A stretch of 64,000 nucleotides of DNA from Planctomycetota bacterium (GTDB lineage Bacteria; Planctomycetota; UBA1135; GCA-002686595), in contig JADYYP010000012.1 of assembly GCA_020853575.1 (NCBI GenBank), positions 1 through 64,000 of the forward strand, written 5' to 3'. This document shows, one piece after another, positions 6,973-25,193 of this stretch (positions are counted from its first letter, which is position 1; every line of letters begins with the position of its first letter). The position numbers were made by a program, and so were the translations under genes. The notes under the pieces are model-generated. The model worked only from the letters and a program-made list of their open reading frames with translations, was not told where the DNA came from and did not search any database.

Positions 6973-8754
6973 TCAGGCGCGCTTGAAATGCAACGTGCTG
7001 CCGGGGACGACGCCCAGCGCATCGAGAGTGCGCGCAGCGCACTGCGCGACCGAGCGCGCGCGCGTCGCGTCGGACTCGACCGAAGTGTGCGGCACCAGCT
7101 CGAAGGTCCACGATTCCGCGTGCAAGCACAGCTCGCCCGCAATGCGCTCGAGAGTGGTCTGCGGATCGCAATGGAACGAGCGCCGCTGCAGCGAGCCCGC
7201 GTCCTCGACCTCGGTCCAAAAGCGCAGATCGGAGCAATGCAGCAGCTCGACCACGTCCAGGCGGCCGCTGGAGAGCTCGCGCAGCACGGTCTCGTCCATC
7301 ACGTGCAGCACCAGGCGCGTGCGCGACTCCGGGTTCGCCCGCAACCACTCGCCCCATGCGCGCACGACCTGGATGAACGAAAAGCGCGCCGGGTAGGGGC
7401 GCTCGGAGTGCGCGGGCGAGCGCGGCGCATCCTCGTCGCGGCCGACGGCGATCAATTGCGCGCGCAGCGTGTGGAACTCGCGGCTGGCGAGGTCGAACAG
7501 CGCGAGCATCGCCGCTCGGATGCACGTCAAGTCCTTGCGGTCCTCGTCGGGGCGCCGCGCGCGCGCCGCGAACGCGGGGGCGGTGCCGTAGCGCGCCACC
7601 AGGCCACCGGCGTGCGCTGTCGGGCGCGGAGGCGCGCCGCCACACCAGGCCGCGAGTGTCGGACGCAGCGACTCGGAGACGAAGAAGCGTTCGTCGCGCA
7701 GCGCGCCGCCCGCGCTGATCACGATGCAATCGCCGGCTTCCGCGTGCTGCGGCAGCGGTCCGCGCACGATCTCGAGTCGCGCGCAACGCTCGTCGGTCGT
7801 GCACGGCTCTCCGAAGCTCCAGGTGTTGGCCAGGACACGCTGCGCGGCAACGGCGTCGCCCAAGCGCCGCAACCAGCGGATCACCGTCGAGCCGCGTTGC
7901 TCGGGCGGTTCGCGGTCGTACTCGACGACGACGATCTGGAAGCGCGCCAGCAGGAAGCCCGGGTCGACTTCACCGCGCGGCAGAATCGCGAAATGGGGGC
8001 GCGAGGTCGGACCGTAGAGCTCGAGCGCCTCGCCCAGGAGCTCTTGGATGTAGTTCTCGCGCAGGCCCGAGCCCAGGAAGAACAGCGAGCGGTGGCGGAA
8101 GACCTCGGCGAAAGCGCGGCGGAAATGCGGCTCGCGATAGGTGACGCGGCGGTACTCGGAGTGATCGATCACGATCTCGCGGCGCAACTCGGCGGGCCGC
8201 AGCACATCGGGCACGTCGCACGGTTCGCCCAGATGCCCTTGCAGCGCCCACAGCAGTGTCGCGTCGCTGCTCGTCAACGACGACAGCACACGCTGGCAGT
8301 CCGCCGGCCCGCGGCCGACGACCGCGATCTCGGCGCGCGGCTTGGCGCGCACGGCGCGGACCAAGTAGTTGTCGTAGTTGGTCGACATCACCAGCGGCCA
8401 CCACAGCGCGGCGAGCGCGACGGTCTGCGGCGGAGGGCTGGCGTCCGGAGCAAACAGCGAGCGCGCGAGCGCCGAGGCGAACTCCGCGGGATCGCGCGAG
8501 CGCAGCGTGGCCGTCGCGCGGTTCGCGCGGCGAATCAGCTCGTCGGGTGGCGTCGTGTCGCCGATCGGCTCGAGCGCGGCGAGTCCGGCGTGGTGCTCGA
8601 GCGCGGAGATCATGCGCGGCCACGTGGCGCACGCGCCGGCGCTCATGCCAGCGCCGATGAACGGCACGAGCTTGCCCGTTGCGTAGGCCGTGACCAGCCG
8701 GGGCAGCAGCGCCTCAAAGGTCGCATCGACGGAGGGCGTCGCGTGGGTCGACAT
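6973..8754 (-). CDS. SIR2-like domain protein (candidate NADase, possible defence)
   Basis: 593-residue cytoplasmic protein. Residues about 25-265 form a SIR2_2-type domain: nucleotide loop VPFIGAGMSAG (30-40), STNYDNYL with candidate catalytic Asn126, LQGHLGEP with candidate His174, then FFLGSGLRENYI and HFAILPR. In bacteria such stand-alone SIR2 domains (ThsA, DSR proteins and others) are often NAD+-consuming immune effectors. The C-terminal ~270 residues include GDCIVISAGG and a later alpha/beta stretch that I cannot assign with confidence; a macro-like sensor is one possibility. No TIR, Argonaute or cyclase partner is adjacent. The start at MSTHATPS is preferred because the upstream frame is translated repeat sequence (8804-8908). 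A non-immune NAD-dependent enzyme remains possible. Confidence 0.75.
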   Translation of the reverse strand: MSTHATPSVDATFEALLPRLVTAYATGKLVPFIGAGMSAGACATWPRMISALEHHAGLAALEPIGDTTPPDELIRRANRATATLRSRDPAEFASALARSLFAPDASPPPQTVALAALWWPLVMSTNYDNYLVRAVRAKPRAEIAVVGRGPADCQRVLSSLTSSDATLLWALQGHLGEPCDVPDVLRPAELRREIVIDHSEYRRVTYREPHFRRAFAEVFRHRSLFFLGSGLRENYIQELLGEALELYGPTSRPHFAILPRGEVDPGFLLARFQIVVVEYDREPPEQRGSTVIRWLRRLGDAVAAQRVLANTWSFGEPCTTDERCARLEIVRGPLPQHAEAGDCIVISAGGALRDERFFVSESLRPTLAAWCGGAPPRPTAHAGGLVARYGTAPAFAARARRPDEDRKDLTCIRAAMLALFDLASREFHTLRAQLIAVGRDEDAPRSPAHSERPYPARFSFIQVVRAWGEWLRANPESRTRLVLHVMDETVLRELSSGRLDVVELLHCSDLRFWTEVEDAGSLQRRSFHCDPQTTLERIAGELCLHAESWTFELVPHTSVESDATRARSVAQCAARTLDALGVVPGSTLHFKRA

Positions 8755-8803: not shown

Positions 8804-8908
8804 CGCGCGAGCGCGCCGGGCGCGTCAGTACAGGCGCACCGCCGCGCACGCACGCTCGAACGCCGCGAGCTCCTCGTCCCACGAGCGATCGATCAGCTCC
8901 AGGCTCGC
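8804..8908. repeat. Displaced 105-bp copy of the 3' end of the NamZ-fusion gene
   Basis: These 105 bases match 22639-22743 in direct orientation with one mismatch (a at 8888 against c). The intact copy is the last 84 bases of the beta-lactamase/DUF1343 gene (22660-24990) plus 21 bases after its stop. Here the fragment stands alone, 50 bases upstream of the SIR2 gene, with the rest of the gene missing. It encodes the same C-terminal residues SWDEELAAFERACAAVRLY. Confidence 0.93.
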
Positions 8909-9072
8909 AGCGCGGGACCGCGACCTGAACGACGTCGCTGAGAGTGCTGCTGCGGCGGTCGGGTGCGGCTCCACGCGGCTCGCGATGGCAGCGGCTCGCG
9001 ACCGCGGACGCGACGGCGAGCTCCAAGTCCGCGGTCGGATCAGCTCGGTGTTGCGCTGGTCGATCGAGCGCG

Positions 9073-9479
9073 TCAGCGCCGTCGAGCAGACGGCTCTCGA
9101 ACCACCACATCTCTCCCGGCCGTCGATCGACGCAGGGTGTCCGCGCGACGGGCGTGGCCTTCTTCTGACCGCGGATGCGCCAAGCCGTCGGCCACGAAGC
9201 CGTCCTCGATCACCATGCAGCCGCCCGCACGACCGATCTCCTCCCCCAAGCGATCGTCTGCTCGTGATCTCCCATGGCGGGCCCGACGCTCAGGAGCAGC
9301 GCCACGTCGAAGGGCTCGTCCTGCCGATGCCGGTTCCGAGTGTCTGCCTGCTCGAAGCGACCGCGCCTGGCGACTTCTCGCTCCAGTGCCAGCCTCTGTG
9401 CGTCGCGCAAGAACGGAGCACGGGCGTCGAGGCCGAGGACTCCCAGCTCCTCGGCCAGGCCCACAGCGCTGGCGCGCGC
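9073..9479 (-). pseudogene. Remnant of a class I SAM-dependent methyltransferase
   Basis: Three minus-strand frames together read like the C-terminal half of a UbiE-type methyltransferase. Frame one (9479 down to about 9250) gives GLAEELGVLGLDARAPFL, RFEQADTRNRH and EPFDVALLLSVGPAMGDHEQT. Frame two gives AGGCMVIEDGFVADGLAHP. Frame three gives DVVVRE and WWFESRLLDGADAL. The N-terminal SAM-binding GxGxG region is missing, cut where the pilin gene stop begins at 9480. At least two frameshifts make it non-functional. It sits between the displaced repeat (8804-8908) and the secretion locus, so it marks a recombination scar. Assignment rests on motif order only. Confidence 0.5.
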
Positions 9480-9983
9480 TCAGCGACTCGTGCCACCGAC
9501 CACGTACGCGAACTCTTGCGACCAATCGCGCGTGGTACCGGACCAGTGACCCTTGTTGGACGCGAACCTGTTGGTTTCGTACTGCGCGATCCCAATCACG
9601 TAGAAGTCGCTGGAGAAGCCTTGGTAGCCGCGCGGATAGTGGCAGTAGCGGAACATGTAGGGCGAGCCCAGCGGATCGAGCACCGTCTCGCGCAGATAGC
9701 CGCCGTCCACCAAGGCCGAGAGAAACTCGCCGTCCGCGGTGGTGTCCCAGCCGTTGCCCGCCGGCTCGACGTCACCGTCGGGCAGAGTGCCCGTGTCCTC
9801 GATGTACGCCTCGAGCGCGCGGACCAGCGTCTTGACGTCCTCGACGCGGCGCACATCACGCGCCTTGGCGAGTTCGTCCGACACCATGGTCACTCCCATG
9901 CCGACCAGGATCACCATGATCGAGATCACGACGACCAGCTCGATCATCGAGAAACCACGCGAGAGCGGGCGCTGGTGGATCAC
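9480..9983 (-). CDS. Type IV pilin-like / pseudopilin protein
   Basis: 167 residues. The N-terminus is a class III prepilin signal: short basic leader, then G/FSMIELVVVISIMVILVGMG, with cleavage expected after the glycine and the conserved Glu at +5 of the mature protein. The remainder has the GspG-like pattern: helical stalk (RRVEDVKTLVRALEAYIEDTG, in part), LPDGD, and DPLGSPYMFRY. It is the last gene of the minus-strand secretion operon, 4 bases after the stop of the GspC/PilP-like gene. The GTG start at 9983 is chosen because GAGGGG precedes it and it fits the leader length; the longer frame would overlap the neighbour. Confidence 0.85.
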   Translation of the reverse strand: MIHQRPLSRGFSMIELVVVISIMVILVGMGVTMVSDELAKARDVRRVEDVKTLVRALEAYIEDTGTLPDGDVEPAGNGWDTTADGEFLSALVDGGYLRETVLDPLGSPYMFRYCHYPRGYQGFSSDFYVIGIAQYETNRFASNKGHWSGTTRDWSQEFAYVVGGTSR

Positions 9984-9987
9984 GGCT

Positions 9988-10773
9988 TCAACCCCTCGCC
10001 GGCGGAATGACAGGCGCCGTGTTGGTGGTGTTCGCCGCCGGCGGCGCTGGCAGCGGTTCACGAGCCGAGTGCGCCGGACCGGTGCGCACGCTGCGTCCGG
10101 GCAAGCGCAACGTCACCTGGTCGTCGATGCCGTCTCCGAGGCCGAGCAGGACGCGATCGCGGTGCACCTCGCGCAGCACGAGCCCATCGTCGCCGACAGA
10201 ATCGCCTTCGCGGTACGTGCGCTCCCCGATCAAGGCGATCTTGGCGCGGCCGCCGACGATGATCCCGCGCAGCTCGAGGCCGAGCACGAGCTCCGCTGCC
10301 CGCGGTCTCGACGCCAGCGCGTGCGCGTTCCCGAGCGGCGTCGGAGACGCCTGGGGCTGCGCCTGATCGCGGATCATCGACTGCAGCATCGACGCCCAGT
10401 CGTCGCTGGGCGCGGGCGTCGGACTGTCCGTCACCGCGGAACGCCCGACGGAGTCCGAGGCCGTGGACTGCGCGGATGCGGAAGCTGCGGAGGCCTGTGC
10501 TGAAGCAGCGCTCGGCGGCTCGAACGCAGGCGCCTGTTCATGATCGTCGACGGATGAAACGACGCTAGGCGCGCCGTCCCCGGTACCGTCGAGTTGCGCG
10601 AGGATCTCGGCGGCTTCGGGCGTCGCCTCGAACGCCGTCGATCCGGGGAATGCCGGCGGTACGCTCACCACCGCCGGGTTCTCGCGCGAACTCCACCAGT
10701 GCACGTCGTAGGCGACGACGCCGGATGCCGCGAGTGCGCAGACGACGGCCAGGATCACTTTCTTTTCGGTCAT
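9988..10773 (-). CDS. GspC/PilP-like inner-membrane linker of the secretion machine
   Basis: 261 residues. One membrane segment (about 6-22), a long Ser/Ala/Pro-rich periplasmic linker (about 75-145), then a beta-rich domain with LRGIIVGGRAKIALIGER, REGDSV and VLREVHRDRVLLGL. This is the pattern of the homology region of GspC and of PilP, which connect the inner-membrane platform to the secretin. A proline-rich tail ends the protein. The ATG overlaps the stop of the upstream gene by four bases (ATGA), showing coupled translation. Family membership is from architecture and gene order, so GspC versus PilP is not decided. Confidence 0.72.
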   Translation of the reverse strand: MTEKKVILAVVCALAASGVVAYDVHWWSSRENPAVVSVPPAFPGSTAFEATPEAAEILAQLDGTGDGAPSVVSSVDDHEQAPAFEPPSAASAQASAASASAQSTASDSVGRSAVTDSPTPAPSDDWASMLQSMIRDQAQPQASPTPLGNAHALASRPRAAELVLGLELRGIIVGGRAKIALIGERTYREGDSVGDDGLVLREVHRDRVLLGLGDGIDDQVTLRLPGRSVRTGPAHSAREPLPAPPAANTTNTAPVIPPARG

Positions 10774-11447
10774 CGGGCAGACTCCGGGGAAGGCTGCGGC
10801 CGGTGCCAGCGGCGCAGGGAGGCGCGGAAATCAACAGCGCCGTGGTCGACAGTGAGCTCGAGCGACTCGAGCGACAGTGGCGAATTGCCGCGCGACAGCA
10901 GTCCGAGGAACAGGAGCACGTTGGGCAACTTCCCCTCGCCCGCCAGCGCGATCTCGTCGAACTCGAATTCGATCTGCGGTTCGCCGGTCGCGTTGTTGGC
11001 GACGACTTCGCCGAGCACGGCGTCGACGCCACTCGAGGCGGTGCGCAGGCCGAGGCGGTCGCCGCGAATCCCCAGCTCGTGCATCTGCACGCCCAGCTCC
11101 GAGGCGTTCGCGAGCAGGCTGCGCCGCAACGCGAGCACCGGCGTCTGCGAGCCGAGCCAGCGCAGCAGATCGCGCGCGGCACGCACTTGGTTCTCTTCGT
11201 CTTGGGCGGTCCATTCGCCTGCGCGCTCGTGGTTGAAGCGCAAGTGATCGATGTCCTGCTGCAGTTGCGTCAGATTCGCCTGCAGCTCGGCGCGCGCGAG
11301 CAACGAAGGCGCCGGCAGCGCCGCGACCGCCGCGAGCACGCACAGCGGAACGAACACCCGCAGCGCCAGCTTGGTGCGTGCGACGCGCTTGGAGTTGCGC
11401 GCTCCGGGCAACGGGCGCTCTTGGCGCAGCTCGATGCGCTGACTCAT
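10770..11447 (-). CDS. GspM/PilO-like assembly platform protein
   Basis: 225 residues with a basic cytoplasmic start, one membrane segment (about 28-50), a heptad-rich coiled coil (ANLTQLQQDIDHLR and following) and a ferredoxin-like periplasmic part (IEFEFDEIALAGEGKLPNV in part, then SLESLELTVD). That build is shared by GspM and PilO, which pair with GspL/PilN at the inner membrane. The ATG at 11447 overlaps the stop of the GspL-like gene by four bases. The frame is open further upstream but that part is arginine-rich and lies inside the upstream gene. Confidence 0.7.
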   Translation of the reverse strand: MSQRIELRQERPLPGARNSKRVARTKLALRVFVPLCVLAAVAALPAPSLLARAELQANLTQLQQDIDHLRFNHERAGEWTAQDEENQVRAARDLLRWLGSQTPVLALRRSLLANASELGVQMHELGIRGDRLGLRTASSGVDAVLGEVVANNATGEPQIEFEFDEIALAGEGKLPNVLLFLGLLSRGNSPLSLESLELTVDHGAVDFRASLRRWHRPQPSPESAR

Positions 11448-12883
11448 CGCAGCGTCACCTGCAATCGAATGGCCTCGGAGCGCTCGCTGCCGACGACGTC
11501 CGCGGGAGGTGGCGCGAGCTCGACCGCTCGACACCACGGCCGTGCGCTCAGGGTGCGTACGAAGCGCTCGAGCAGCTCGACGTCTCGGCCCTGGAACCGG
11601 CCGCGCACGCTCAGGCGCATCGACTTGGAGCCAGCCTCGTAGGCCAGCTCCTCGACGACGAGCTCGCGTGGCGCGAGCACCAGGCACTCGACGGTCGGCA
11701 CGACGCGCTCGGCTTCACGGGCACCGACCTGACCGAGCACGTGCTCCGCGTCCTCGAGCCAGGTGCGGCGCTCGAGCAGCTCGTGCGCGTGCGCTTCGTC
11801 GTTGCGCAACTCGGTCAACAGCGCGCGGGCCGACGTGACGTCGTGTTCGAGCGACCGAGCGACAGCGCGCGCTTCGAGGTACGTCGGCCAGGTCACGCCT
11901 GCGACGCTGACCAGCGCGATGACGCTGCTTGCCGCGATCAGAGTCGTGGCGCGCACGCGGTGCGGCGGCAGCAAGTCGAAGGGCGTGTCGGGAGCCAGCA
12001 CCAAGCCAGCGACCACGACGTCGTTGGGATCGTCGCCGAAGGCCGCGAGCGGCTCGACGCCGACGCCCAAGCCCACCGAGAGCCAACGCGCGAGCGTCGC
12101 GGCACCGTCGCGTTCCAGGCCCGACACCAACACGGAGTCGAAGCTGCGACCGCGGCGCTTCTCGCGGAAGTACGAAACCGATCGCTGCGTCTCGGCGAGC
12201 ACGACGTCGGGCGCCTGCACCGTGGCATCGGCCAACGCGTCGCGCAGGATGCGCGCGTGGTTGAGGCGCCCGTCCTCGAACACGAAGATCGACAAGGTCG
12301 GAACGCGCACGTCCACCACGGCGACGACGCCGGAGGACGACGATAGTGTGCGCTGAACCACACGCACGAGCGCCAGCATCGGGGGGACGAGCCCGCGCGC
12401 GCGGATGCGCTGGCGATCGAGCTCGGTACGCAATCCCTGAGCCGCCTCTGCATCGATCCAGCCGAGCAGGCTGTTTTCGTCCCGCTCGTCGGCGCTCCCG
12501 CGGAAGACGTCGGCGAACACCGCGCGGGCATCGACATCGCGCTGGCGCAGGTGTCGTTCGAGCAAGGCGCGGAGCACCTTGGCGCGCGCCCGCGGGAGCT
12601 CGGTGTGCACCAAGCCGAACGCCGACTGCGCGAAGGTCAATCCGCGGAGCTCGCGGCCGCGACCGAACTTCGTGAGTGCCCGTGCCAGCGCATCGGCCAA
12701 AGGCTGCGGCGAGAGTGGGTCGAGCGCCGGCGCCAGGGGCTCGAGCGGGAAGCTCGCTCGGGCACGTACTTGAAAGCGCCCGTCGACGAACGCCGCGTCG
12801 ACGAGCTCGAGCGCGCGCGCCTCGACGCGCGCGACGATGCCGGCGCCTTTCATGGCCGTGCTCGAGCGGCGCCACGCGCTCAT
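11444..12883 (-). CDS. GspL-like protein (PilM actin-like domain fused to PilN-like part)
   Basis: 479 residues. The first ~300 form a cytoplasmic actin-like (PilM/GspL) domain, with VVAVVDVRVPTLSIFVFEDG as the probable phosphate-binding turn. A single membrane segment (about 325-347, TTLIAASSVIALVSVAGVTW) follows, then a coiled coil and a PilN-like beta-alpha-beta domain (SMRLSVRGRFQGRDVELLER in part). This makes it the bridge between the GspE ATPase and the membrane platform. ATG at 12883 overlaps the preceding pseudopilin stop by four bases. Sequence similarity to named GspL proteins cannot be verified here; the assignment is by topology and position. Confidence 0.72.
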   Translation of the reverse strand: MSAWRRSSTAMKGAGIVARVEARALELVDAAFVDGRFQVRARASFPLEPLAPALDPLSPQPLADALARALTKFGRGRELRGLTFAQSAFGLVHTELPRARAKVLRALLERHLRQRDVDARAVFADVFRGSADERDENSLLGWIDAEAAQGLRTELDRQRIRARGLVPPMLALVRVVQRTLSSSSGVVAVVDVRVPTLSIFVFEDGRLNHARILRDALADATVQAPDVVLAETQRSVSYFREKRRGRSFDSVLVSGLERDGAATLARWLSVGLGVGVEPLAAFGDDPNDVVVAGLVLAPDTPFDLLPPHRVRATTLIAASSVIALVSVAGVTWPTYLEARAVARSLEHDVTSARALLTELRNDEAHAHELLERRTWLEDAEHVLGQVGAREAERVVPTVECLVLAPRELVVEELAYEAGSKSMRLSVRGRFQGRDVELLERFVRTLSARPWCRAVELAPPPADVVGSERSEAIRLQVTLR

Positions 12884-13701
12884 TTCCACTTTCCCCAGGC
12901 CCAGCCTTTGCCGTTCTTGCGGCCGCCGCCAGCGCCGCTGTTTCCGCCACTGTCGCCGTTGCCCGAGCTGCCGGAGTTGTCCGCCGCGCCCAGTGGATCG
13001 AGGTGCACAGACTTCAAGCGCACCACGGGCGACACGCCCTCGGGGTCCTCCACGTACAGATCGCCCCAACCGTCGTAGTACAGCTGATCGTCGGACTGCT
13101 TGGGCAAGTAGCTCAGCGACACCAGCGTGCTGATCACGTCCTTCACGCCGCTGGAGAACGGGTTCTTGCCGCTCGTGCCCGAAGCGATCGCGGCGGTGAT
13201 CGCGGCGTTGAGCAGGTTGAGCTCGGAGAGCGAGTGCTCGCGCCGCAAGAACGTGACGTCGATCACCTGCGTGATGTCGTCGCTCGTACCGTCGGTGGCG
13301 TCGGGTCCGATGCTGCGTACCACGACCTGCGAGATATCGATCACCTCGACCACGTACGCCTGTCCCCAGGCATCGCTCTCGAGCGAAACGTCGCCGGCCG
13401 AGGTGCTCGAGATCAGCGGCGTCGCGTATGGTCCGGCCCAACCCGTGGCCTTGGACTCGTTCTGTTCGAGGTCGACGAACGAAGGGGGGAACTCGCCCAC
13501 GTCACTGAAGTAGTTCTCGATCGCCGTGCGCAACGCGACGAGTTCGTTGCGCGTCTCCGCCACGCGTGTGCGCGTGATCGTCCGGCTCATGACGGGAATC
13601 GCGAGCCCCGCGACGATCGCCATCACGCCCAGGACGATCAGCACTTCGATCAGGGAGAAGCCGCGTCGCGCGCAGGGCGCAGAGCTCGTTGTGGCGTTCA
13701 T
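12880..13701 (-). CDS. GspG-like major pseudopilin with Gly/Ser-rich tail
   Basis: 273 residues, long for a pseudopilin (usually 140-180). The prepilin motif ARRGFSLIEVLIVLGVMAIV gives cleavage after Gly and Glu at mature position 5. A GspG-like stalk and globular region follow (ENYFSDVGEFPPSFVDL, TGWAGPYATPLI, DAWGQAYVV). An extra ~100 residues include a second DGWGDLYVEDPEG block and a glycine/serine/asparagine-rich tail ending in GKGWAWGKWK. The start at 13701 overlaps the gspF stop by four bases. The long tail is unusual and may extend from the pseudopilus surface. Confidence 0.85.
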   Translation of the reverse strand: MNATTSSAPCARRGFSLIEVLIVLGVMAIVAGLAIPVMSRTITRTRVAETRNELVALRTAIENYFSDVGEFPPSFVDLEQNESKATGWAGPYATPLISSTSAGDVSLESDAWGQAYVVEVIDISQVVVRSIGPDATDGTSDDITQVIDVTFLRREHSLSELNLLNAAITAAIASGTSGKNPFSSGVKDVISTLVSLSYLPKQSDDQLYYDGWGDLYVEDPEGVSPVVRLKSVHLDPLGAADNSGSSGNGDSGGNSGAGGGRKNGKGWAWGKWK

Positions 13702-14900
13702 TTGATAGCGTCGTAGAGGCTGAAAATCGGTAGCACCGCGGCGATCACGATCGTCCCGCACACCAAGCCCGCGGCGCCGATCATCAACGGCTCGAGGAGC
13801 GACAGCGCCCGTCGGACGCGCGCGGGGATTTCGGTCTCGAAGTAGGTGATGGCTGTGTCGAGCGCCTCGTCGGGCTGACCGGTCGATTCACCGAGTTGGA
13901 TCATGCGCCGCACCAGCGGGTGCAGTTCGCTGACCGGCTGGAGCGCCTCGCTCAATGTGTGCCCCTCGCGAATCGTCTCGGACGCCGCGCGCGTTCGTTC
14001 GGCGAACCACGACGAGCCACTGGCCTCGCCCGCGGTGCGCACCGAACGCACAGCCTCGACGCCCGACGCGAGCATGGTGCGCAACGCGGCCGAGAAACGC
14101 GCATTGGCGCTCATGTTGAGCACGGTCGAGAGGATGGGCGTCGAGAGCGCGACGCGACTGGCGAGCAGATGGAAGGTCGGAAACGCCAGCGCGAAGCGGA
14201 ACGAGGCCGCGAACGCGGCCAGTCCTCCGACCAACCACGGCCAGTGCGCGATGATGAAATCGGACACGTCGACCAGCGCTTGGGTGATGGGGGGCAGCTT
14301 CGCGCCGCTCTTGGCCATGACCCCGACCAGGCGCGGCAGCACGAACGTCAGGAGCAAGATCACCAGCCCCAAGACGGCGGTGCCGACCACCGCCGGATAG
14401 ACCAGTGCTTGCACCACACACGCGCGGATCTCGCGCTGGAATTCGATCTGCTTGGCGATGCGTCCGAGCACGATGTCGACGGCACCCGACAGCTCGCCGG
14501 CACGGATCATGTGCACCAGCGACTCGTCGAACTGCCGCGGGTGGCGCGCGAACGCATCGGAGAGCGACACGCCTTCGCGCACGTCGGCGACGATGTGACG
14601 CAAGGTCGTGGCCAGCTCCTTGGAGGGCGTTTGCTCGGCGTGATCCTCGAGAGTTTGGATCAGCGGTAGTCCGGCCTTGGTGCACAGCGCGACGTAGCGC
14701 AGGCACTCGGCGAGCTCGCGCGACGCCGGTCCGTGACGCTTGGCGGACAGCGGGAAGAGCTCGCGCACCTTGCGGGCGTCGACCAAGGCGAGCCCGCGCA
14801 GGTCGAGTGTGCTGCGCAGCTCGTAGACATCGACGGCGGTCGAGACGCCGCGCGTCACCGAGCCGTGCTCGTCGCAGGCGGTGTAGTTGAAAGTGGCCAC
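13698..14900 (-). CDS. gspF: Type II secretion / type IV pilus inner-membrane platform protein GspF
   Basis: 400 residues, the usual GspF/PilC length. Two repeated cytoplasmic helical domains are visible: LRYVALCTKAGLPLIQTLE with DESLVHMIRAGELSGAVD, and FSAALRTMLASGVEAVRSVR with HPLVRRMIQLGESTGQPDEAL. Three hydrophobic segments surround them, the last near the C-terminus (GAAGLVCGTIVIAAVLPIFS). GspF couples GspE ATP hydrolysis to pseudopilin addition. The start is a GTG (VATFNY) whose first base lies three bases past the gspE stop; no better start exists in frame near it. Confidence 0.92.
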   Translation of the reverse strand: MATFNYTACDEHGSVTRGVSTAVDVYELRSTLDLRGLALVDARKVRELFPLSAKRHGPASRELAECLRYVALCTKAGLPLIQTLEDHAEQTPSKELATTLRHIVADVREGVSLSDAFARHPRQFDESLVHMIRAGELSGAVDIVLGRIAKQIEFQREIRACVVQALVYPAVVGTAVLGLVILLLTFVLPRLVGVMAKSGAKLPPITQALVDVSDFIIAHWPWLVGGLAAFAASFRFALAFPTFHLLASRVALSTPILSTVLNMSANARFSAALRTMLASGVEAVRSVRTAGEASGSSWFAERTRAASETIREGHTLSEALQPVSELHPLVRRMIQLGESTGQPDEALDTAITYFETEIPARVRRALSLLEPLMIGAAGLVCGTIVIAAVLPIFSLYDAIK

Positions 14901-14902
14901 AA

Positions 14903-16594
14903 CTACAGCACCTCCGCGGCCTGCCAGCTCGTGCACACGCGCAGCACTTCGGCGACCGTGGTCGCACCGGCGAGCACTTTGTCGCGCGCGTCGTCGAGCA
15001 TCGTGCGTCCCGCGCGTTTGCGGTGCAGCTCGATCAGATCGAGCTCGCTCGCTCCGGACGAGATCGAGCGCATCGCGTCGGAGTCGACGACGAACAGCTC
15101 GTAGACCGCCGTTCGTCCGGCGTAGCCCGTTCCGTGGCATGCGCCGCAGCCGCGCCCTTCCCACAACGAGCGCCCGGCGTTGGACGCACCGAGCCAGACG
15201 CGTTCGGCCTCGTTCGGCGAGCGCTCCGCGCGACAGCGCGAACACACGCGGCGCAATAGGCGCTGGGCCATCGAGGCGCTCAGCGAATTTGCCACGAGGT
15301 AGCGATCCATGCCCAGATCGAGCAGGCGCGTGACGACGCCGACAGCCGAGTTGGTGTGGATGCTCGAGAGCACCAGGTGACCGGTCAGCGACGCCTTGAG
15401 CGCGGTGTCGGCGGTCTCGCGGTCGCGGATCTCACCGATCAGGATCACATCGGGATCCTGGCGCAGAGTCGTGCGCAGGCCGTCGGCGAAGGCGTAGCCT
15501 ATGCCGCTGTCGACTTGGCTCTGACGGATCAGGGGCAACTGGTACTCGATCGGGTCCTCGATCGTGACCACCTTGCGCGTCAGCGAGTCGATCGCAAGCA
15601 GGCACGCGTACAAGGTCGTGGTCTTGCCCGAACCCGTCGGTCCGGACACCAGCAACATGCCCTGCGGTCGCGCGAGCAGCTGGTCGAGCTTGGCGCGCGG
15701 CGATCCGACGATGCCGAGCTCGTCCAAGTGCAGCGCGATCGACGAGCGATCGAGCACGCGCAGCACCGCGTTCTCGCCGTGCATGGTGGGCATGATCGAC
15801 ACGCGCATGTCGACGGCACCGCGCTCACCGGTCCATTTCAGGCGTCCGTCCTGCGGCCGGCGGCGCTCGGTGATGTCGAGCGCGCTCAACACCTTGATGC
15901 GCGTCAGCACGCTGGGGCCGGCGTCTTTGGGCAGCGTCTCGGCACGCGCCAGCATCCCATCGATGCGATAGCGCACGCGCAGGAGCTTCTCCTCGGGCTC
16001 GACGTGGATGTCGGTCGCGCCCCAGCGCAGGCCTTGTTGCAGCAGGCGATCGACGATGTCGGCCGAGCCGCGCGACTGGGAGTCGGCGACGCTCGCGGGC
16101 AACGCCGGCGGTGGTGTCGAGGGCGTCGTTGGAGCCGCGCCTTCGAGCAGTCGGCCGATGGCGTCGTGGATGTCGCGTTGCGAGGCCGCGACGATCGTCA
16201 CGCGGCACTTGACGCGTGTCTTGATCTCGTCGAGGGCCATGAAATTGGCCGGGTTGGCCAGCGCGACCACCAACGCGTCGCCTTCCCGACGCAGCGGGAA
16301 GCACCCGTGAGAGCGCGCGAACTCGGCCGACATGGTGGCGAGCACGCCGGGGTCGGGCGAGAGCGTGCGCAACTCGACGAACGGCACGCCCAGCTCCTCG
16401 GCCAGGTCGCGCGCGAGGTCGTCGTCGCGCAGGAACCCCAACTCGACCAACGTGCGCCCCAGGGGCTCGCCCGTGCGCTGTTGCTGGGCGAGTGCGGTCG
16501 AGAGTTGCTCCGCCGAGATCCACTTGCGCTCGACCAAGCGTTGACCGAGCAGCAGGCGCTTGCGCTCGGGTTGGAGGGGTACGGAGGCGGCCAT
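14903..16594 (-). CDS. gspE: Type II secretion / type IV pilus assembly ATPase GspE/PilB
   Basis: 563-residue cytoplasmic hexameric ATPase that powers pseudopilus growth. An N-terminal MshEN-type domain (1-145: LLLGQRLVERKWISAEQL, PFVELRTL) is followed by the N2 domain and the motor domain with Walker A GPTGSGKTTTLYA (318-330), the Asp box (EDPIEYQLP), Walker B (DVILIGEIRDRETAD) and the His box (TGHLVLSSIHTN). A tetracysteine zinc site (CSRCRAE ... CGACHGTGYAGR) is present, as in GspE/PilB. First gene of the minus-strand operon, divergent from the secretin. Confidence 0.95.
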   Translation of the reverse strand: MAASVPLQPERKRLLLGQRLVERKWISAEQLSTALAQQQRTGEPLGRTLVELGFLRDDDLARDLAEELGVPFVELRTLSPDPGVLATMSAEFARSHGCFPLRREGDALVVALANPANFMALDEIKTRVKCRVTIVAASQRDIHDAIGRLLEGAAPTTPSTPPPALPASVADSQSRGSADIVDRLLQQGLRWGATDIHVEPEEKLLRVRYRIDGMLARAETLPKDAGPSVLTRIKVLSALDITERRRPQDGRLKWTGERGAVDMRVSIMPTMHGENAVLRVLDRSSIALHLDELGIVGSPRAKLDQLLARPQGMLLVSGPTGSGKTTTLYACLLAIDSLTRKVVTIEDPIEYQLPLIRQSQVDSGIGYAFADGLRTTLRQDPDVILIGEIRDRETADTALKASLTGHLVLSSIHTNSAVGVVTRLLDLGMDRYLVANSLSASMAQRLLRRVCSRCRAERSPNEAERVWLGASNAGRSLWEGRGCGACHGTGYAGRTAVYELFVVDSDAMRSISSGASELDLIELHRKRAGRTMLDDARDKVLAGATTVAEVLRVCTSWQAAEVL

Positions 16595-16736
16595 GGCGTG
16601 GAGCGGCTCGCAGTCCTTCTCGCGTGAATCGTCGGTGCGCTTGAGGGGTGCCCGCCGCGCGTGTCCCAGGTCCGAAACGTCGCCCTGCGCACCCTCAAGA
16701 GCCCTTCGCGGCGCGTCGACGAGCGACCCGATCGCC
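16595..16736. promoter_or_regulatory. Divergent promoter region gspE / secretin
   Basis: These 142 bases lie between the divergent starts of gspE (minus) and the secretin gene (plus) and must carry both promoters. No boxes or operators could be assigned by eye. Coupled control of the secretin and the inner-membrane operon from here is an inference from layout. Confidence 0.4.
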
Positions 16737-18104
16737 ATGCGCACTTCCCCGCCTCGCCTCGCCATCCTGCTCGCCTCGGCCCTGCTGCTCGAGAGCTGCG
16801 CGACGCCCCGACAATCCGCCCCAGCCGATGAGCCGCTGGACGCTCCGGCACCGCGCGAGGCCGACGTCTCCGCGGTCGAGGCCGCTTCGGCGCCGTCCCT
16901 GCCCAGGCGCCAAACGCCGGTCGCGCTGCAAGAGCCGAGCTTGGCGGAGCTCGTGCCCGAGCTGAACGCGGACACGCACAACTACACGATCGAGCTGCGT
17001 GGCGTGTCGCTGGCGCAGGCGCTGGGGACGATCGGCGAGCTCGGCAAGCTCAACCTGATGCTGGTCGGCGACTTCGCCGACGTCGTCGACATCTCGTTCC
17101 CAGGCGTGAGGCTGAGCGGCGCCCTGGAGGTGCTGCTCGAGCGCTACGGCGCGCATTTAGAGCGCACGGCGGGCATCTGTACGGTCACACGGCGCGCTCC
17201 CAACGAGAGCCGCACGGAGGTCTTCACGCTTTCGTCGATCCCCGCGAGCGAGCTCGAAGCCCAACTGCAGACGATCGCTGGCACCGGCGCGCAGGTGGTG
17301 GTCAACGCCACGCGCAACATCGTCATGGTCACGGCCAACGAGAGCGCGCTCCAGGACGTGCGCGACTGGCTCGCCGCCGTCGACAAGAACCAGCGTCAGG
17401 TGCTGATCGAAGCGCGCATCCTCGAGGTGTCTCGCCAGGATCTGCTCAAGCTCGGCACCGAGCTCGCGTTGCACAACATCGAGCTCGGCTCGGGCACGGC
17501 CAACTTCGTCACGGGCCTACTGACGGGCGCGACCAACGGCGTGCTCGACTACGCCAACCCCACCGACAACATCGACGCTTCGATCGACGCGCTCTCACGC
17601 CATGCGCGCGTCAACGTCCTGAGCAAGCCCAAGCTGCTCACGCTCAACCAGAAGCCGGCCAAGTTCGAGGTCGTCTCGCAGGTGCCGTACGTCAACTCCT
17701 CGACGACGACCCAGGGCTCCAACACCGGTACGGGGACGGTCACGGTGACCGACGTGCAGTTCAAGGACGTCGGTCTGAAGCTGACCGTGACGCCCGAGAT
17801 CCAGGAGAACGGCTACATCAGCCTGTCGGTCACGCAGACCACCAGCGAGCAAACCGGCACGTTCCAGGGCGTTCCCGTGATCGACAACCGCCTGGTGCAG
17901 ACCGACTTCCTGGTGGGCGACGGCGAGACCGCGCTGATCGCAGGCATCCTCAAGACGCGCGACGCTCGCGCGACCAACGGCGTGCCGTGGATCGAGCAGA
18001 TTCCGATCGTCGGGCTGGCCTTCCAGGGCCGCGACGACGAACAATCGTCGATCGACCTGGTGATCACGATCACGCCGCGGATCGTGCACCAGGACGAGCG
18101 CTGA
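16737..18104 (+). CDS. Outer-membrane secretin (GspD/PilQ family), lipoprotein
   Basis: 455 residues, shorter than typical GspD (600-700). Residues 1-21 are a lipoprotein signal with lipobox LLES-C. An N-domain (NYTIELRGVSLAQALGTIGE) and one N1-type KH fold (VFTLSSIPASELEAQLQTI, IVMVTANESALQDVRDWL) lead to the secretin domain: RQVLIEARILEVSRQDLLKLG, KLLTLNQKPAKFEV, SQVPYVN, then VGLKLTVTPEIQENGYISL and the C-terminal VPWIEQIPIVGLAFQ. It forms the outer-membrane pore through which the pseudopilus pushes substrates or the pilus emerges. Its last 35 bases overlap the convergent glycosyltransferase gene. Confidence 0.92.
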   Translation: MRTSPPRLAILLASALLLESCATPRQSAPADEPLDAPAPREADVSAVEAASAPSLPRRQTPVALQEPSLAELVPELNADTHNYTIELRGVSLAQALGTIGELGKLNLMLVGDFADVVDISFPGVRLSGALEVLLERYGAHLERTAGICTVTRRAPNESRTEVFTLSSIPASELEAQLQTIAGTGAQVVVNATRNIVMVTANESALQDVRDWLAAVDKNQRQVLIEARILEVSRQDLLKLGTELALHNIELGSGTANFVTGLLTGATNGVLDYANPTDNIDASIDALSRHARVNVLSKPKLLTLNQKPAKFEVVSQVPYVNSSTTTQGSNTGTGTVTVTDVQFKDVGLKLTVTPEIQENGYISLSVTQTTSEQTGTFQGVPVIDNRLVQTDFLVGDGETALIAGILKTRDARATNGVPWIEQIPIVGLAFQGRDDEQSSIDLVITITPRIVHQDER

Positions 18105-18918
18105 TGCGCTGGCGCAGCCGCGCGATTCGTCGCCGCACGCGCCACAGGTCGACCAGCATCGTCCGGCTCGCCGCGCCCAGTGCCAATGTGGAGCGCGGAT
18201 CGTCGGACCACTCGACGGGCACCTCGGCGATCGCGAGATCGGCCTTGCGCGCGAGAGCGAGCCACTCGACGTCGAAGGCGAAGCCGTCGATGCGTGAAGC
18301 TCGCGCGACCAAGCGCGCTGCGCGCCGCGTGAAGGCCTTGAAGCCGCATTGCGTGTCGGCCAATCCCAGCGGCACGAGCCCCGCGGCAAGCGCGCGGAAC
18401 ACGCGGCCCGCCACGCGGCGGGCCAACGGCTGTGCGACGCGGATCGCCGCTCGCGGTACGTAGCGCGAGGCGATGGCGATGTCGGCACCGCGCTCGAGCG
18501 CGGCGATCAGGCACGGCAGTTCGGTGAGCGGCGTCGACAGGTCGGCGTCGGAGAACACGACGATCTCTCCCGCCGCGGCGCGGAAGCCGGTACGCACGGC
18601 CGCGCCCTTGCCGAGGTTGTGCGCGTGCCGCAGCACGCGCAGCGAACGGAACTGCTCCTGAAGTCGCGCCGCGGCCCGCGCGGTCTCGTCGGGGCTGCCG
18701 TCGTCGACGACGAGCACCTCGATCGGCCAGCGCGCGCCGGCGGCGAAGCGCGCGAGCTTGGCGAGGCTGCGCTCGATGCGCAGCTCCTCGCGATACGCGG
18801 GCACGATCAGGCTGACGAGCGGTCCAGAAACGGCGCGACGCACCTCGCACGGGTGCGTCGTCGCGGGCAGCGCTGCCGGGCCGGCCACCGCGCCCTGCTC
18901 GTCGATGCGAACGGCCAT
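18070..18918 (-). CDS. GT2 glycosyltransferase, dolichyl-phosphate glucosyltransferase (ALG5/DPM1) type
   Basis: 282 residues. GT-A fold glycosyltransferase: SLIVPAYREELRIERSL, VLVVDDGSPDETA, NLGKGAAVRTGF, the metal-binding DAD in VVFSDADLSTP, then SRYVPRA, DTQCGFKAF and the EVPVEWSDDPRSTL box typical of the ALG5/DPM1 branch. Such enzymes move a sugar from a nucleotide donor to a polyprenyl phosphate at the inner membrane. No C-terminal membrane helices are seen. It lies 14 bases downstream of a pseudopilin gene and in the same run as a second pilin and a polytopic membrane protein, which points to pilin or surface glycosylation (inference). Confidence 0.85.
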   Translation of the reverse strand: MAVRIDEQGAVAGPAALPATTHPCEVRRAVSGPLVSLIVPAYREELRIERSLAKLARFAAGARWPIEVLVVDDGSPDETARAAARLQEQFRSLRVLRHAHNLGKGAAVRTGFRAAAGEIVVFSDADLSTPLTELPCLIAALERGADIAIASRYVPRAAIRVAQPLARRVAGRVFRALAAGLVPLGLADTQCGFKAFTRRAARLVARASRIDGFAFDVEWLALARKADLAIAEVPVEWSDDPRSTLALGAASRTMLVDLWRVRRRIARLRQRISARPGARSAA

Positions 18919-18932
18919 CGCGGTCGGCTGTC

Positions 18933-19499
18933 TCAGAGCTTGAGCGTCACGACCATGGCGATGTCATCGCCGCTGGTCTCTCCCGACGCGAGCGCGGCGC
19001 CGGTGGTCGTGTTCGTGGTTCCGTCGGGCCCCTTGGAAAGCAGCACGATCGAGCCCGGCGTGCCCGAGGCGGCATAGCCAGTGGCGAAGTAGTAGATGAC
19101 GTACGGACGCTGCCAGGGATCGAGTAGGCCCGTGTTGGTCGCGCCCGAGGTCGCGACCTGCATCGATGTGCCGACGCGCGCGCCCTTGTTCAGGTACGGG
19201 CCGTCCCAGCCGGTCTTGGAGTAGGTGTTCTGGAAGAGGCAGGTGAAGCTCGTCAGGTCGTGGCTCGTGGTCGCGATCGAGCTGTAGCTCGCATTCGACG
19301 GCCAGACGCTGGTGTCGGAGTCGTAGCGCGTGAACGCATTGCCGATCTCCTTCATGTCGCTCTGGGCGCGAGCGATCTTCGACTTGTCGACGTAGCTGCC
19401 GATCGCCGGGACGAGCACGCCGGCGAGCACGACCAAGATGGCGACGACTACGACGAGTTCGGTGAGCGTGAAGCCGCTGCGCGAAGGGCACTGTTTCAT
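18933..19499 (-). CDS. Pseudopilin / type IV pilin-like protein
   Basis: 188 residues. Leader SRSGFTLTELVVVVAILVVLAGVL is a class III prepilin signal with Glu at mature position 5. The stalk reads KSKIARAQSDMKEIGNAFTRYDSDT and the globular part contains KTGWDGPYLNKGAR and LLDPWQRPYVIYYF, as in GspG. Serine/threonine-rich loops (TTNTTTGAALASGETSG) may be O-glycan acceptor sites, which would fit the neighbouring glycosyltransferase. Paralogous to the gene at 19629-20204. Confidence 0.87.
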   Translation of the reverse strand: MKQCPSRSGFTLTELVVVVAILVVLAGVLVPAIGSYVDKSKIARAQSDMKEIGNAFTRYDSDTSVWPSNASYSSIATTSHDLTSFTCLFQNTYSKTGWDGPYLNKGARVGTSMQVATSGATNTGLLDPWQRPYVIYYFATGYAASGTPGSIVLLSKGPDGTTNTTTGAALASGETSGDDIAMVVTLKL

Positions 19500-19628
19500 G
19501 GGGAAGCGAAGGGCACGGGACGGGGGAGGAATCCGAGTCCTCGGCAGGCATTGCGCGGCTCGGGCTGCCTCAATTCTCGACCTCCCGCCATGCGCACTTG
19601 AGCGCGGGATAGGTTTCCGAATCGGCGC

Positions 19629-20204
19629 TCACTGCTCGAGCGCGATCACTTGCACCAGGTCGTCTCCGGCGACCGGCGTGCCCCACAGGTTCTCGATCGT
19701 GACCCAGTCGAGGCTGCCGTTGGGACCCATTGAATACAGCATCATCCCGCCGCCGAGCAGGCTTCCAGGCAGGTACAGCAGCATGTACGGCCGGCCCCAG
19801 GGATCGAGCACGCCCTTCGACGTCGTGCCGACTGTCGAGCCGATCACGAGTGACGAGCCCACTCCCAGCACGCCGCGGCTGAAGTACGGCCCATTCCAAT
19901 TCGTCACCGTCGAGGGTTGCTGGTACAGGCACGCGAAGCCCTGGAGCGAGGTGAACAGGAACAAATTGCCCGTCGGCGCCGCGTTGAAGGTCGGGTTGGG
20001 CCAAGTCCCGGTGTCGTTGCGGTAGCGGTTGAATGCGTCGGCGATCTCGCGCAGGTCCTGCTGACCGCGCGCGCGTTTGGACTTGTCCACCTGGCCCGCC
20101 ACGGCGGGCACGAGTACGCCTGCCAGCACGACGAGCATCGACATGGCGACCACGAGCTCGACGAGCGAGAATCCAGAGCGAGGCGCGCGATGGAAGGTCC
20201 GCAT
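19629..20204 (-). CDS. Pseudopilin / type IV pilin-like protein
   Basis: 191 residues with prepilin signal RSGFSLVELVVAMSMLVVLAGVL, stalk KSKRARGQQDLREIADAFNRYRNDT, and the GspG-type WNGPYFSRGV and VLDPWGRPYMLLYL. It shares layout with the next gene downstream (18933-19499), so the two probably arose by tandem duplication. Positioned 42 bases after the large membrane protein gene on the same strand. Confidence 0.87.
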   Translation of the reverse strand: MRTFHRAPRSGFSLVELVVAMSMLVVLAGVLVPAVAGQVDKSKRARGQQDLREIADAFNRYRNDTGTWPNPTFNAAPTGNLFLFTSLQGFACLYQQPSTVTNWNGPYFSRGVLGVGSSLVIGSTVGTTSKGVLDPWGRPYMLLYLPGSLLGGGMMLYSMGPNGSLDWVTIENLWGTPVAGDDLVQVIALEQ

Positions 20205-20246
20205 CGGGAGGGGGGGACGGCTCTCGAGTCGGACGTTCGGGGCGCG

Positions 20247-22331
20247 CTACTTGAGCTGCGCGCGGCGGCGCAGCGCGGCTCCGCCCGCGAGCACCAGCGT
20301 CAACGCCGTGAGCCAGGTGCCCAAGCGTTCGGACCAGCGCGGCTCGAATCGGAGCTCGATGCGTCCGCGGCCGTGCACCAGACAGAAACCGGGCGCCACA
20401 CGGTCGACTCGAATCTCGCGCCCAGCGCAACGAGCACGCCAACGCGGATGCCAGGCGACTTTCAGGACGACCGGCACGTCCGAGTCCGCCTCCACGTCGA
20501 GCACGTAGCGGCGTCCCTGGTCGAGGCGCTCGAGCGCGGTGACGCGGGCCGTGTCGGGTGCCGGGTCGAGCACGAGCCCCGGGCGCGCGACGACCGGGCG
20601 CGGCACGGAGGAGGTCGCAAAACTCCATGTTGCGACGGCGCGGTTCCAACTCTCGAGGTCGCTCCACGCAGTGCTCTCCAGCGGCTCGCGTACGAGCTCC
20701 GCGAGCCTCGGACGTGAACGCACCTCATGCAGGCGAAACAGGTACTCTCCGCGCTCGCGCTCGCTGCGCTCCGAGCCATCCCAGGCACCGGGTATCTGGC
20801 ACACGACCACGCCGGGCTCGACCAACTCGTCGGGCAGGCGACTCTCGGTAAGCACGTGAGTGATGCCGAAACGCTCGAGCTCGCGCCCGAGCAACTGCAC
20901 GCCCGGCAACGTCTCCGTTGCGTCGCCGCCCATGCGTGCGAGCGCCAAGTCGCGCGCGATCGGCGCAACCGCACTCTCGTTCCAGCCCACGCCCCACACG
21001 AACGTGTCGAGGGACACCGAGCGCATCAGGTTCATGCACCAGCGTCCCAAAGGCGTCGATTCGACGAACAGCCCGATCACGCCGTCGACCTGGGCGCGGC
21101 GCGGAAACTCGTTCTGCAGCCAGTGGCTGGAGGGCTGGTGCGCGGGGGACGCGACGATCAGGACGCGCGCGTCAGTTGGGAGATCGAGCGGCACGGCGAT
21201 CTCGGGCAGCGGGGTGAGATCCTGGAACTGATCGCGGTTCCAGGCGAGCGCGAACAACAGCGCGAGGCCGGACACGCCAGCCGCGAGTCGAGCGCGCGCG
21301 CCGCGCACGAGCTCGACCGACACGTACGCCAGGCCGAGGAATACGAATACGTGGAAGCGATAGAGATGCAACCGCACTTCGGCCCAATCGCCGAGCGCGA
21401 GCAGCCCCGCGAGAACCAGCGTGAACAGCGCCACCGCGCCCGCGCGGCTCCAGCGAATGCGCGGGCTGCGGCGCAAGAGCAGCGCGCCCAGTGCGGTCGC
21501 GAGTGTCGCGACCATGAGCGGCAGCGGGTGCTCGCTCGGCAGGTGGTGGACGACGCCGTAGCCGAGGTCGGTGAACAACGGCAGGCTCCAGAACGCGCTG
21601 AATCCGAAGCACGCGCCCGCAACCACCACCGCGTGCCCGAACAGGCGGCGGCGACGGCGGTGTCGCAAGACGGCGAAACCGACCTCGACCGCGTAGAACA
21701 CCACCAGCGCGAGCGCGCACACCATGTGGCTGAGCACGCACGCGGCGCCGAGTGCGCCAGCGAGCCCCAGGCCACGACCTGCGACGATTGCGCACCGTGC
21801 GCGCGATGCAGCGAGGAAGTACAACGGCAGGCCGACGGCATTGGCCGTCAAGCCCACCTGGTAGAGCGTGTAGAAGTCGGTCGAGAGCTGCAGGCCGTGC
21901 GCGAGCGTCGGACCGATGAACAACAGCGCCGTCGCGAGCAAGGCGAACAGGCTCGCCGTTCCAGGGCGCGCGCCTCGGCCGCGTGCAAAGACCCAGGCGC
22001 TCCACGGCGTCGCGCCGACAGCGAGTGCGAGCACACAGCGCAGCGCGATTTCGAGCGGCAGGATCGTTCCGAGTGCGGCGATCGAGACGTGTGTCAGCGG
22101 CGGATAGCTCGCGCCCTGCGGGTAGCCGCAGAAGTAGCTCGAGTTCCAGCCCGTCCAGGCAGGCCAAAAGCGCTCGCGCAGCGTCTGGGCCGCCGCGAGA
22201 TGGCCCTCGGCGTCCTGAAGGGCCTCCACCGGCGCGAACAGGCCCGGCAGCGCGTAGCTCCACGCCACGATCGCGGTCGCGCTAGCCACAGCAATCCACG
22301 CCAACCTGCGTTCAGGCCTCGCCCACCCCAT
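20247..22331 (-). CDS. Large polytopic membrane protein, possible GT-C-type glycosyltransferase
   Basis: 694 residues. The first ~480 contain roughly ten to twelve membrane helices separated by short loops; the pattern with an early periplasmic loop (QDAEGHLAAAQTLRERFWP, then NSSYFCGYPQGASYPP) resembles the YfhO / PTPS-related membrane families and GT-C enzymes that use lipid-linked sugars. The last ~210 residues are a soluble, probably periplasmic beta-rich domain (VPVVLKVAWHPRWRARC, IELRFEPRW), ending with a final membrane helix. The ATG at 22331 is the first Met before the hydrophobic part; the frame is open further upstream but runs into repeat and junction sequence. Substrate unknown; the GT2 and pilins downstream suggest pilin glycosylation. 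Confidence 0.7.
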   Translation of the reverse strand: MGWARPERRLAWIAVASATAIVAWSYALPGLFAPVEALQDAEGHLAAAQTLRERFWPAWTGWNSSYFCGYPQGASYPPLTHVSIAALGTILPLEIALRCVLALAVGATPWSAWVFARGRGARPGTASLFALLATALLFIGPTLAHGLQLSTDFYTLYQVGLTANAVGLPLYFLAASRARCAIVAGRGLGLAGALGAACVLSHMVCALALVVFYAVEVGFAVLRHRRRRRLFGHAVVVAGACFGFSAFWSLPLFTDLGYGVVHHLPSEHPLPLMVATLATALGALLLRRSPRIRWSRAGAVALFTLVLAGLLALGDWAEVRLHLYRFHVFVFLGLAYVSVELVRGARARLAAGVSGLALLFALAWNRDQFQDLTPLPEIAVPLDLPTDARVLIVASPAHQPSSHWLQNEFPRRAQVDGVIGLFVESTPLGRWCMNLMRSVSLDTFVWGVGWNESAVAPIARDLALARMGGDATETLPGVQLLGRELERFGITHVLTESRLPDELVEPGVVVCQIPGAWDGSERSERERGEYLFRLHEVRSRPRLAELVREPLESTAWSDLESWNRAVATWSFATSSVPRPVVARPGLVLDPAPDTARVTALERLDQGRRYVLDVEADSDVPVVLKVAWHPRWRARCAGREIRVDRVAPGFCLVHGRGRIELRFEPRWSERLGTWLTALTLVLAGGAALRRRAQLK

Positions 22332-22638
22332 GGAAACGCTTTCGGTCCACAGCCGCGCTCGATGAAGCGAGCGGGAGGCGTGCGTACCAGCGCTGGGACG
22401 CGCGGAGGTCTGCGCTTGCGCACGCGACACGGCTGGCTCGCTCCGATCTGAAGCTACAGGAGAACCTCCGCGTTCTTCCACAGTGGCGCCGAGCAGGGGC
22501 TCGAGCTGTTCGCCGGCGGTCACGTCCCAGCTCAGGATGTCCGGGTCGAGCGATCGCACCGCGCCCCCTCGGCTTTCGATCGCGTGCCGAGTCTCGCCGA
22601 GCCACGCGGCCGTGCAGAGCAGCCGCTCGTCGTCCCAC
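22332..22638 (-). other. Junction spacer with a possible coding remnant
   Basis: 307 bases between the polytopic protein start and the direct repeat. The minus frame that runs out of the repeat reads RWDDERLLCTAAWLGETRHA and goes on to LDPDILSWDVTAGEQLEPLL before becoming low-complexity. The composition looks protein-like, but it has no start of its own and no recognised family, so it may be the stump of a lost gene. No promoter could be assigned. Confidence 0.35.
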
Positions 22639-22743
22639 CGCGCGAGCGCGCCGGGCGCGTCAGTACAGGCGCACCGCCGCGCACGCACGCTCGAACGCCG
22701 CGAGCTCCTCGTCCCACGAGCGCTCGATCAGCTCCAGGCTCGC
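22639..22743. repeat. Resident copy of the 105-bp direct repeat (3' end of NamZ fusion)
   Basis: Matches 8804-8908 in the same orientation with one base difference. It covers the last 84 bases of the beta-lactamase/DUF1343 gene, its TGA, and 21 bases beyond. This copy is in its natural gene context. The two copies bracket 13.7 kb including the secretion locus and the pilin/glycosyltransferase group. Confidence 0.93.
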
Positions 22744-24990: not shown

Positions 24991-25151
24991 GCGGCTCGCC
25001 GCGCGCGACGTGCGCTGCCCAGGTGGATGTCGCGGGTGGTCGTCGCGCACGTGCGGCGCGCTAGCCTAGCGCCACGGCGCGGGAGCGACGAGCAGTGCCA
25101 TGGGGCGCGCGCAACGAGATCAGCGCTCCGACCACGAGGTCAGCGCGAAGT

Positions 25152-25193
25152 GTCACCCATGTGCCCGAGCACAACGGTCACCCATGTACCCGG
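25152..25193. repeat. Paired GTCACCCATGTRCCCG motif, IS-end-like
   Basis: The 16-base motif GTCACCCATGT(G/A)CCCG occurs at 25152-25167 and 25177-25192, 25 bases apart, in an otherwise empty 270-base intergenic stretch. Twin motifs of this look are seen near the ends of IS481-like elements, but no transposase is present, so this would be a worn remnant. Confidence 0.35.

Follow-up and report, generated by a model that had tools for sequence, protein, structure and literature searches.

The window analyzed here, which covers the first 64 kb of the 221,582-bp contig C12 in a Planctomycetota metagenome-assembled genome (MAG; 88 contigs, 6.17 Mb, 92.5% complete), contains a 13,730-bp block of secretion-like genes directly behind a gene for a beta-lactamase/NamZ fusion protein (hereafter NamZ), and this block is flanked by a 105-bp direct repeat that includes the end of the NamZ gene. 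We consider it probable (roughly 65%) that the block, here called block 1, is a horizontally acquired segment that was inserted directly behind NamZ with duplication of 105 bp of its target. The features at this site are as follows:

3864-4559, minus strand: HAM1/RdgB (probable start at 4478), the ancestral NamZ neighbor, which keeps the ancestral GCTATCCTGCGCCGC leader
4630-6690, minus strand: FG-GAP repeat protein, part of one layer with the SIR2-like gene, with a 70% identical homolog in G003
6973-8754, minus strand: SIR2-like gene between the stray repeat copy and HAM1 (SIR2_2, E=1e-16)
8804-8908, minus strand: target duplication, stray copy (one mismatch)
8909-22638: inserted block 1, 13,730 bp, missing at this site in five congeners
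22639-22743, minus strand: target duplication, gene-attached copy (81 coding nucleotides, stop codon, and 21 nucleotides downstream)
22660-24990, minus strand: target gene, the intact beta-lactamase/NamZ fusion (Pfam Beta-lactamase, NamZ_N, and NamZ_C)

The two repeat copies align directly and without gaps over 105 bp and agree at 104 positions, the lone mismatch being an A at 8888 and a C at 22723, while identity falls to background level at once outside both edges. The repeated sequence comprises 81 coding nucleotides of the NamZ fusion, its stop codon, and 21 nucleotides past the stop. Only these two full copies occur in the 6.17-Mb genome, the third match covering 35 bp at 89% identity, and a chance origin of the repeat is excluded because the longest exact match among 300 random window pairs from the same contig was just 15 nucleotides. 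A first-pass annotation of this DNA had described the repeat as direct, including the stop codon, with a single mismatch and with the stray copy downstream of the intact gene, and its coordinates turned out to be exact to the base.

The same annotation had left open whether the whole block was inserted or whether the SIR2 gene was moved together with a scrap of its former neighbor. To distinguish between these options, we turned to five congeners (G001, G002, G003, G005, and G006), so that this empty-site comparison is one between species and not between strains. Within the reach of each contig, their gene order is ArgS-Apt-sigma-BirA-Rph-NamZ-HAM1-LepA; their NamZ orthologs are 65 to 69% identical to the fusion protein in the window, and the end of NamZ lies about 25 bp from the start of HAM1/RdgB. 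Thus, the repeat represents a conserved gene end that was single-copy before the insertion and whose orthologous counterpart stands directly before HAM1, and the GCTATCCTGCGCCGC leader of HAM1 in the window corresponds to the sequence that follows the NamZ stop codon in the congeners. By synteny, neither the 13,730-bp block nor the SIR2 gene was found at the NamZ-HAM1 junction of these five genomes, which argues that positions 8909-22638 are an insertion and that the stray 105 bp are a duplicated piece of its target. There was no sign of the opposite pattern, in which the block would be universally present and the scrap alone would vary.

In the window, 18 kb separate NamZ from HAM1; this distance is made up of the block, the stray repeat copy, and the SIR2 and FG-GAP genes, and of this additional sequence the repeat brackets the block alone. 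The most parsimonious history would start from NamZ-HAM1, proceed to NamZ-SIR2-FG-GAP-HAM1, and end with insertion of the block and duplication of the 105 bp of target. Since the SIR2 and FG-GAP genes are missing from this junction in the congeners, they constitute a separate insertion layer that left no visible scar. The SIR2-like gene has homologs in G010 and on contig C12 itself, and none at this junction in the congeners. These observations would also suit the second proposal of the first-pass annotation, according to which SIR2 relocated to its present place beside the block and brought along 105 bp of its previous neighbor NamZ. We nevertheless regard that scenario as highly improbable and, moreover, as unneeded, given that the repeat brackets the block exactly and that block insertion already explains the duplication; in addition, the SIR2/FG-GAP-HAM1 side has no scar, and two other inserts described below show the same pattern with quite different far-side genes. 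The position of the FG-GAP gene differs between genomes: it lies upstream of HAM1 in the window, and its 70% homolog in G003 (contig C144) lies between HAM1 and LepA, suggesting that the gene has either moved or been gained twice. Furthermore, two lineage-specific expansions in the window, at 24991-31289 (between Rph and NamZ) and at 54798-62859 (between ArgS and the gene at 62860), occupy junctions that are tight in the congeners and have no detectable flanking duplication. More generally, flanking scars were sought and not found at the Rph/NamZ, ArgS/62860, and HAM1/LepA junctions or in the layers between the stray copies and HAM1 or BirA.

Two further insertions in the same genome have the same anatomy. 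The first lies in the window behind a sigma factor gene, where the duplication at 40025-40128 and 51326-51429 reported in the first-pass annotation is real, 104 bp long, and exact:

40025-40128, minus strand: second target duplication, stray copy (104/104 identical)
40129-51325: inserted block 2, 11.2 kb, with restriction-modification/helicase genes
40184-43474: type III-like Res, block 2
43474-44727: YhcG/DUF1016 nuclease, block 2
44727-47855: type III-like methyltransferase, block 2
47903-50791: DrmD-like SNF2 helicase, block 2
51326-51429, minus strand: second target duplication, gene-attached copy, 104 bp (sigma-factor end)
51334-52404, minus strand: second target gene, a sigma-70 family factor, directly followed by BirA in G001, G002, G003, and G006

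The four genes of block 2 possibly form a hybrid restriction/DISARM-like defense system. The second of these insertions is located on contig C14, where a 166-bp repeat (94737-94902 and 98512-98677; 97% identical, five mismatches) consists of 44 nucleotides of a conserved gene end, including the stop codon, and 122 bp of downstream sequence. The gene hit in this case is a putative aminotransferase, as judged from its sequence, and the insert measures 3.6 kb and contains two putative secreted-protein genes; the flanking genes, separated by about 36 bp in G001, G002, G005, and G006, are 6.3 kb apart here. All three insertions (repeat lengths of 104, 105, and 166 bp) are located at gene 3' ends. 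In each case, one copy of the repeat remains part of the intact gene, the stray copy lies downstream, and further scar-less, lineage-specific genes separate it from the conserved gene that follows. These two sibling events show that the process is recurrent and not bound to one cargo. On contig C75 of the same genome, we also noted a 143-bp direct repeat (122747-122889 and 122912-123054; 99.3% identical, 22 bp apart) that spans the 3' end of a tRNA-Glu gene and the spacer to a XerC-type recombinase gene, an arrangement with the same gene-end anatomy and almost no insert.

Such repeat pairs are rare. In the 1.85 Mb surveyed, about 30% of the genome, the only pairs more than 2 kb apart were the three cases and one pair that reflects a shared C terminus; the remaining repeats were tandem, insertion-sequence, or paralog repeats. 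No comparable pair was present in 400 kb of the near-complete family member G022, in which direct pairs of more than 90% identity were either spaced by at most 2 kb or belonged to a dispersed family of 160 to 173 bp. Likewise, loci from other genomes totaling about 1.15 Mb, a limited control because each spans at most 22 kb, yielded a few direct pairs 2 to 4 kb apart and none wider at an identity of at least 95%. Additional cases may be hidden in the genome, because longer identical repeats would break contigs. The shared-C-terminus pair (C12:60101/71122, a repeat of 458 to 466 bp) was considered as a fourth case and rejected, since it joins two intact secreted-protein genes (60101-60560 and 71122-71587) whose 3' ends are 97% identical over 466 bp. 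This C-terminal region also occurs in weaker form in the window proteins at 30130, 25261, and 58732 and in congeners, and is perhaps a sorting domain homogenized by gene conversion. A 139-bp repeat on contig C9 (41027-41165, 42490-42628, and 44097-44235), with three copies about 88% identical and one of them inverted, is possibly a small non-autonomous element.

That both window repeats measure 104 to 105 bp and lie on a single contig, in a MAG of 88 contigs, could also point to an assembly artifact, a reading to which we give very little credence. The insertion stands on one contig without N runs, and its outer flanks on either side show synteny with the congeners. Contig ends in this assembly stop at repeats of 121 to 132 bp, several of which are insertion-sequence ends, indicating that a larger k-mer was used, so that a 105-bp repeat would cause no false join; moreover, the three repeats carry zero, one, and five mismatches. 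The contig-end repeats themselves (about 121 to 132 bp) were evaluated as target duplications and dismissed, as they are mostly insertion-sequence ends. A composite transposon or simple insertion sequence, with insertion-sequence ends and a target duplication of 2 to 14 bp, was rejected as well: there is no transposase, the block has no match to the insertion-sequence repeats at contig ends, and the duplication is 105 bp long.

To obtain a better view of what was inserted, we annotated the cargo of block 1:

8909-9480, minus strand: decayed methyltransferase-like remnant at the block edge, frame-broken, with a weak Methyltransf_25 match
9480-9983, minus strand: pseudopilin (N_methyl)
9988-12883, minus strand: three proteins of 261, 225, and 479 amino acids without a Pfam match
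12880-13701, minus strand: GspG-like pseudopilin (N_methyl and T2SSG)
13698-14900, minus strand: GspF-type platform protein (T2SSF, E=3e-52)
14903-16744, minus strand: GspE/PilB-type ATPase (T2SSE, E=8e-121; MshEN)
16737-18104, plus strand: secretin, divergent from GspE (Secretin, E=1e-40)
18070-18918, minus strand: GT2 glycosyltransferase (Glycos_transf_2, E=5e-29)
18933-19499 and 19629-20204, minus strand: two T2SSG-like pseudopilins (N_methyl and T2SSG)
20247-22289, minus strand: large orphan membrane protein of 680 amino acids without a Pfam match and with weak partial matches only in relatives

Block 1 therefore holds the ATPase, platform protein, secretin, and pseudopilins of a type II secretion/type IV pilus-like system. 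The cargo listed in the first-pass annotation (GspE, GspF, secretin, pilins, a GT2, and a polytopic membrane protein) was recovered in full, including four N-methylated pseudopilins; its broken methyltransferase at 8.9 to 9.5 kb is indeed frame-broken, but the Methyltransf_25 match (E=0.003) is below the cut-off. Neither a prepilin peptidase nor restriction-modification genes were found in the block. The position of the 261-, 225-, and 479-amino-acid proteins, which is the one expected for a GspL/M/N/C or PilM/N/O set, suggests that they are assembly platform proteins. The first of them has a weak GspC_delta match (E=5e-4) far below the cut-off, and the third (11444-12883) matches no family or solved structure and was found in no other genome among 25.

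Next, we asked how this system relates to those native to the family. The native Planctomycetota loci, represented by contig C75 of the same genome with the usual order secretin-GspE-GspF-GspG, likewise hold these four genes side by side. In contrast to the native loci of the family, in which secretin and GspE are codirectional, the secretin of block 1 is inverted, and the block carries orphan proteins. Its GspE is 45 to 48% identical to the native copies and found no match at E of at most 1e-160 in 153 other genomes of the class. The phylogeny of gspE that had been proposed earlier as a check for transfer placed this protein, with full support and on a long branch, outside the clade formed by the native copies of the family, to which the genome's own second copy belongs. 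Block 1 is therefore not a recent copy of a resident locus. A foreign composition of the inserts was also considered and rejected, as their GC content and tetranucleotide usage fall in the 79th to 90th percentile and are no outliers.

The position at a gene 3' end, the direct orientation of the repeat, and the regenerated gene end are classic traits of integrase-mediated islands, in which a recombinase, since lost or acting in trans, would have placed a circular element at the 3' end of NamZ and the 105 bp would represent attL and attR; furthermore, 11 tyrosine-recombinase and 2 resolvase matches exist elsewhere in the genome. However, no integrase, resolvase, or transposase was found in any of the three inserts, and neither PF00589 nor PF00239 has a match anywhere on C12 or C14. 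The three repeats do not match one another, no sequence is common to the targets or insert ends, and no convincing terminal motif is shared by the three inserts, which argues against one site-specific enzyme, as a single enzyme could not serve three unrelated targets. Three independent integrase losses would then be required, and we consider this route improbable.

Alternatively, the duplication could have arisen in one step during break repair, either by capture of foreign DNA at an overhang of about 105 nucleotides that was filled in on both sides or by out-and-back template switching. This would yield the identical product without a NamZ-carrying donor, and both the near-equal lengths of 104 and 105 bp and the 0 to 3% divergence between copies fit a single event of this kind. 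On the other hand, the third case measures 166 bp, and classical end-joining is unlikely, as Ku is found neither in this genome nor in its congeners (some family members have it). We rate break repair as possible but rather unlikely.

The most likely mechanism, judged from the product and held tentatively at somewhat less than even odds, is one-sided homologous capture of foreign DNA during uptake. In this scenario, the incoming DNA bore NamZ with the block behind it. Homologous recombination inside NamZ would have attached one side of this DNA, the far end would have been joined illegitimately at a point about 84 bp upstream of the resident NamZ end, and the resident gene end would have been left over as the scrap. 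Such a course of events during uptake is known as homology-facilitated illegitimate recombination. The scrap would then be delimited on one side by the illegitimate joint and on the other by the onset of divergence between the donor and resident downstream sequences, and its variable length, as one-sided homology predicts, matches the observed repeats. ComEC is present in the genome and Ku is missing, and uptake plus homology is therefore favored over end-joining; DNA uptake is thus possible in this genome. Because the interrupted gene retains its full 3' end, a long duplication that includes the gene end would render the insertion harmless, and such events may survive at tight gene junctions. 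Several points weigh against our interpretation: the genome is a MAG with a completeness of 92.5%, ComEC alone is no proof of competence, the near-equal 104 and 105 bp could hint at a fixed-length process, and one-sided homology is not separable from a single-crossover circle, staggered-break fill-in, or template switching.

It is tempting to speculate, doubtful as this is, that planctomycete genomes grow by recurrent, recombinase-free, cargo-blind insertion, with restriction-modification genes as one kind of passenger, and at the same time that inserts survive preferentially behind gene 3' ends by way of a restoring target duplication of 100 to 170 bp. Such insertions have rarely been documented, and earlier reports linked them chiefly to restriction-modification genes. 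The finding of three cases in a single genome, of which two lack such cargo, suggests that the process is not a property of those genes and instead offers foreign DNA a general way into operon junctions that leaves the gene ahead of the landing site undamaged. The scar is simple to search for, so that frequency, sites, and cargo could be quantified wherever a set of closely related genomes exists.

Among known systems, integrase-borne islands share with our cases a direct repeat (attL/attR) that contains a gene end, a regenerated gene, and a scrap at the far end; they differ in that here there is no integrase, the targets are unrelated, and no attachment core is common to them. In homology-facilitated illegitimate recombination, one side of the foreign DNA is joined by homology and the other side illegitimately (PMC3240628 and references in PMC3784515), which could by inference leave a duplicated recipient segment as observed here; that process is known from experiments on DNA uptake and conjugation in the laboratory, whereas here it is deduced from the product alone. 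The closest counterpart is insertion with long target duplication in Helicobacter pylori (Nobusato, Uchiyama, Ohashi and Kobayashi 2000, as cited in PMC1643837 and PMC3031569), proposed in 2000 as a route for the movement of restriction-modification genes, whose mechanism is left unexplained in the citing papers. As in H. pylori, the insert is missing in relatives, there is no transposase, and host target sequence makes up the direct repeats, which are about 100 bp long and vary in length; block 2 even has restriction-modification cargo, which is frequent in the literature and not obligatory. Unlike in H. pylori, our comparison is between species and not strains, all three events are at gene 3' ends, and the phylum is Planctomycetota. 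The three cases thus fit insertion with long target duplication, extended to a new phylum and to non-restriction cargo, and the new element is long target duplication around block 1 and the C14 insert, which carry no restriction-modification genes.

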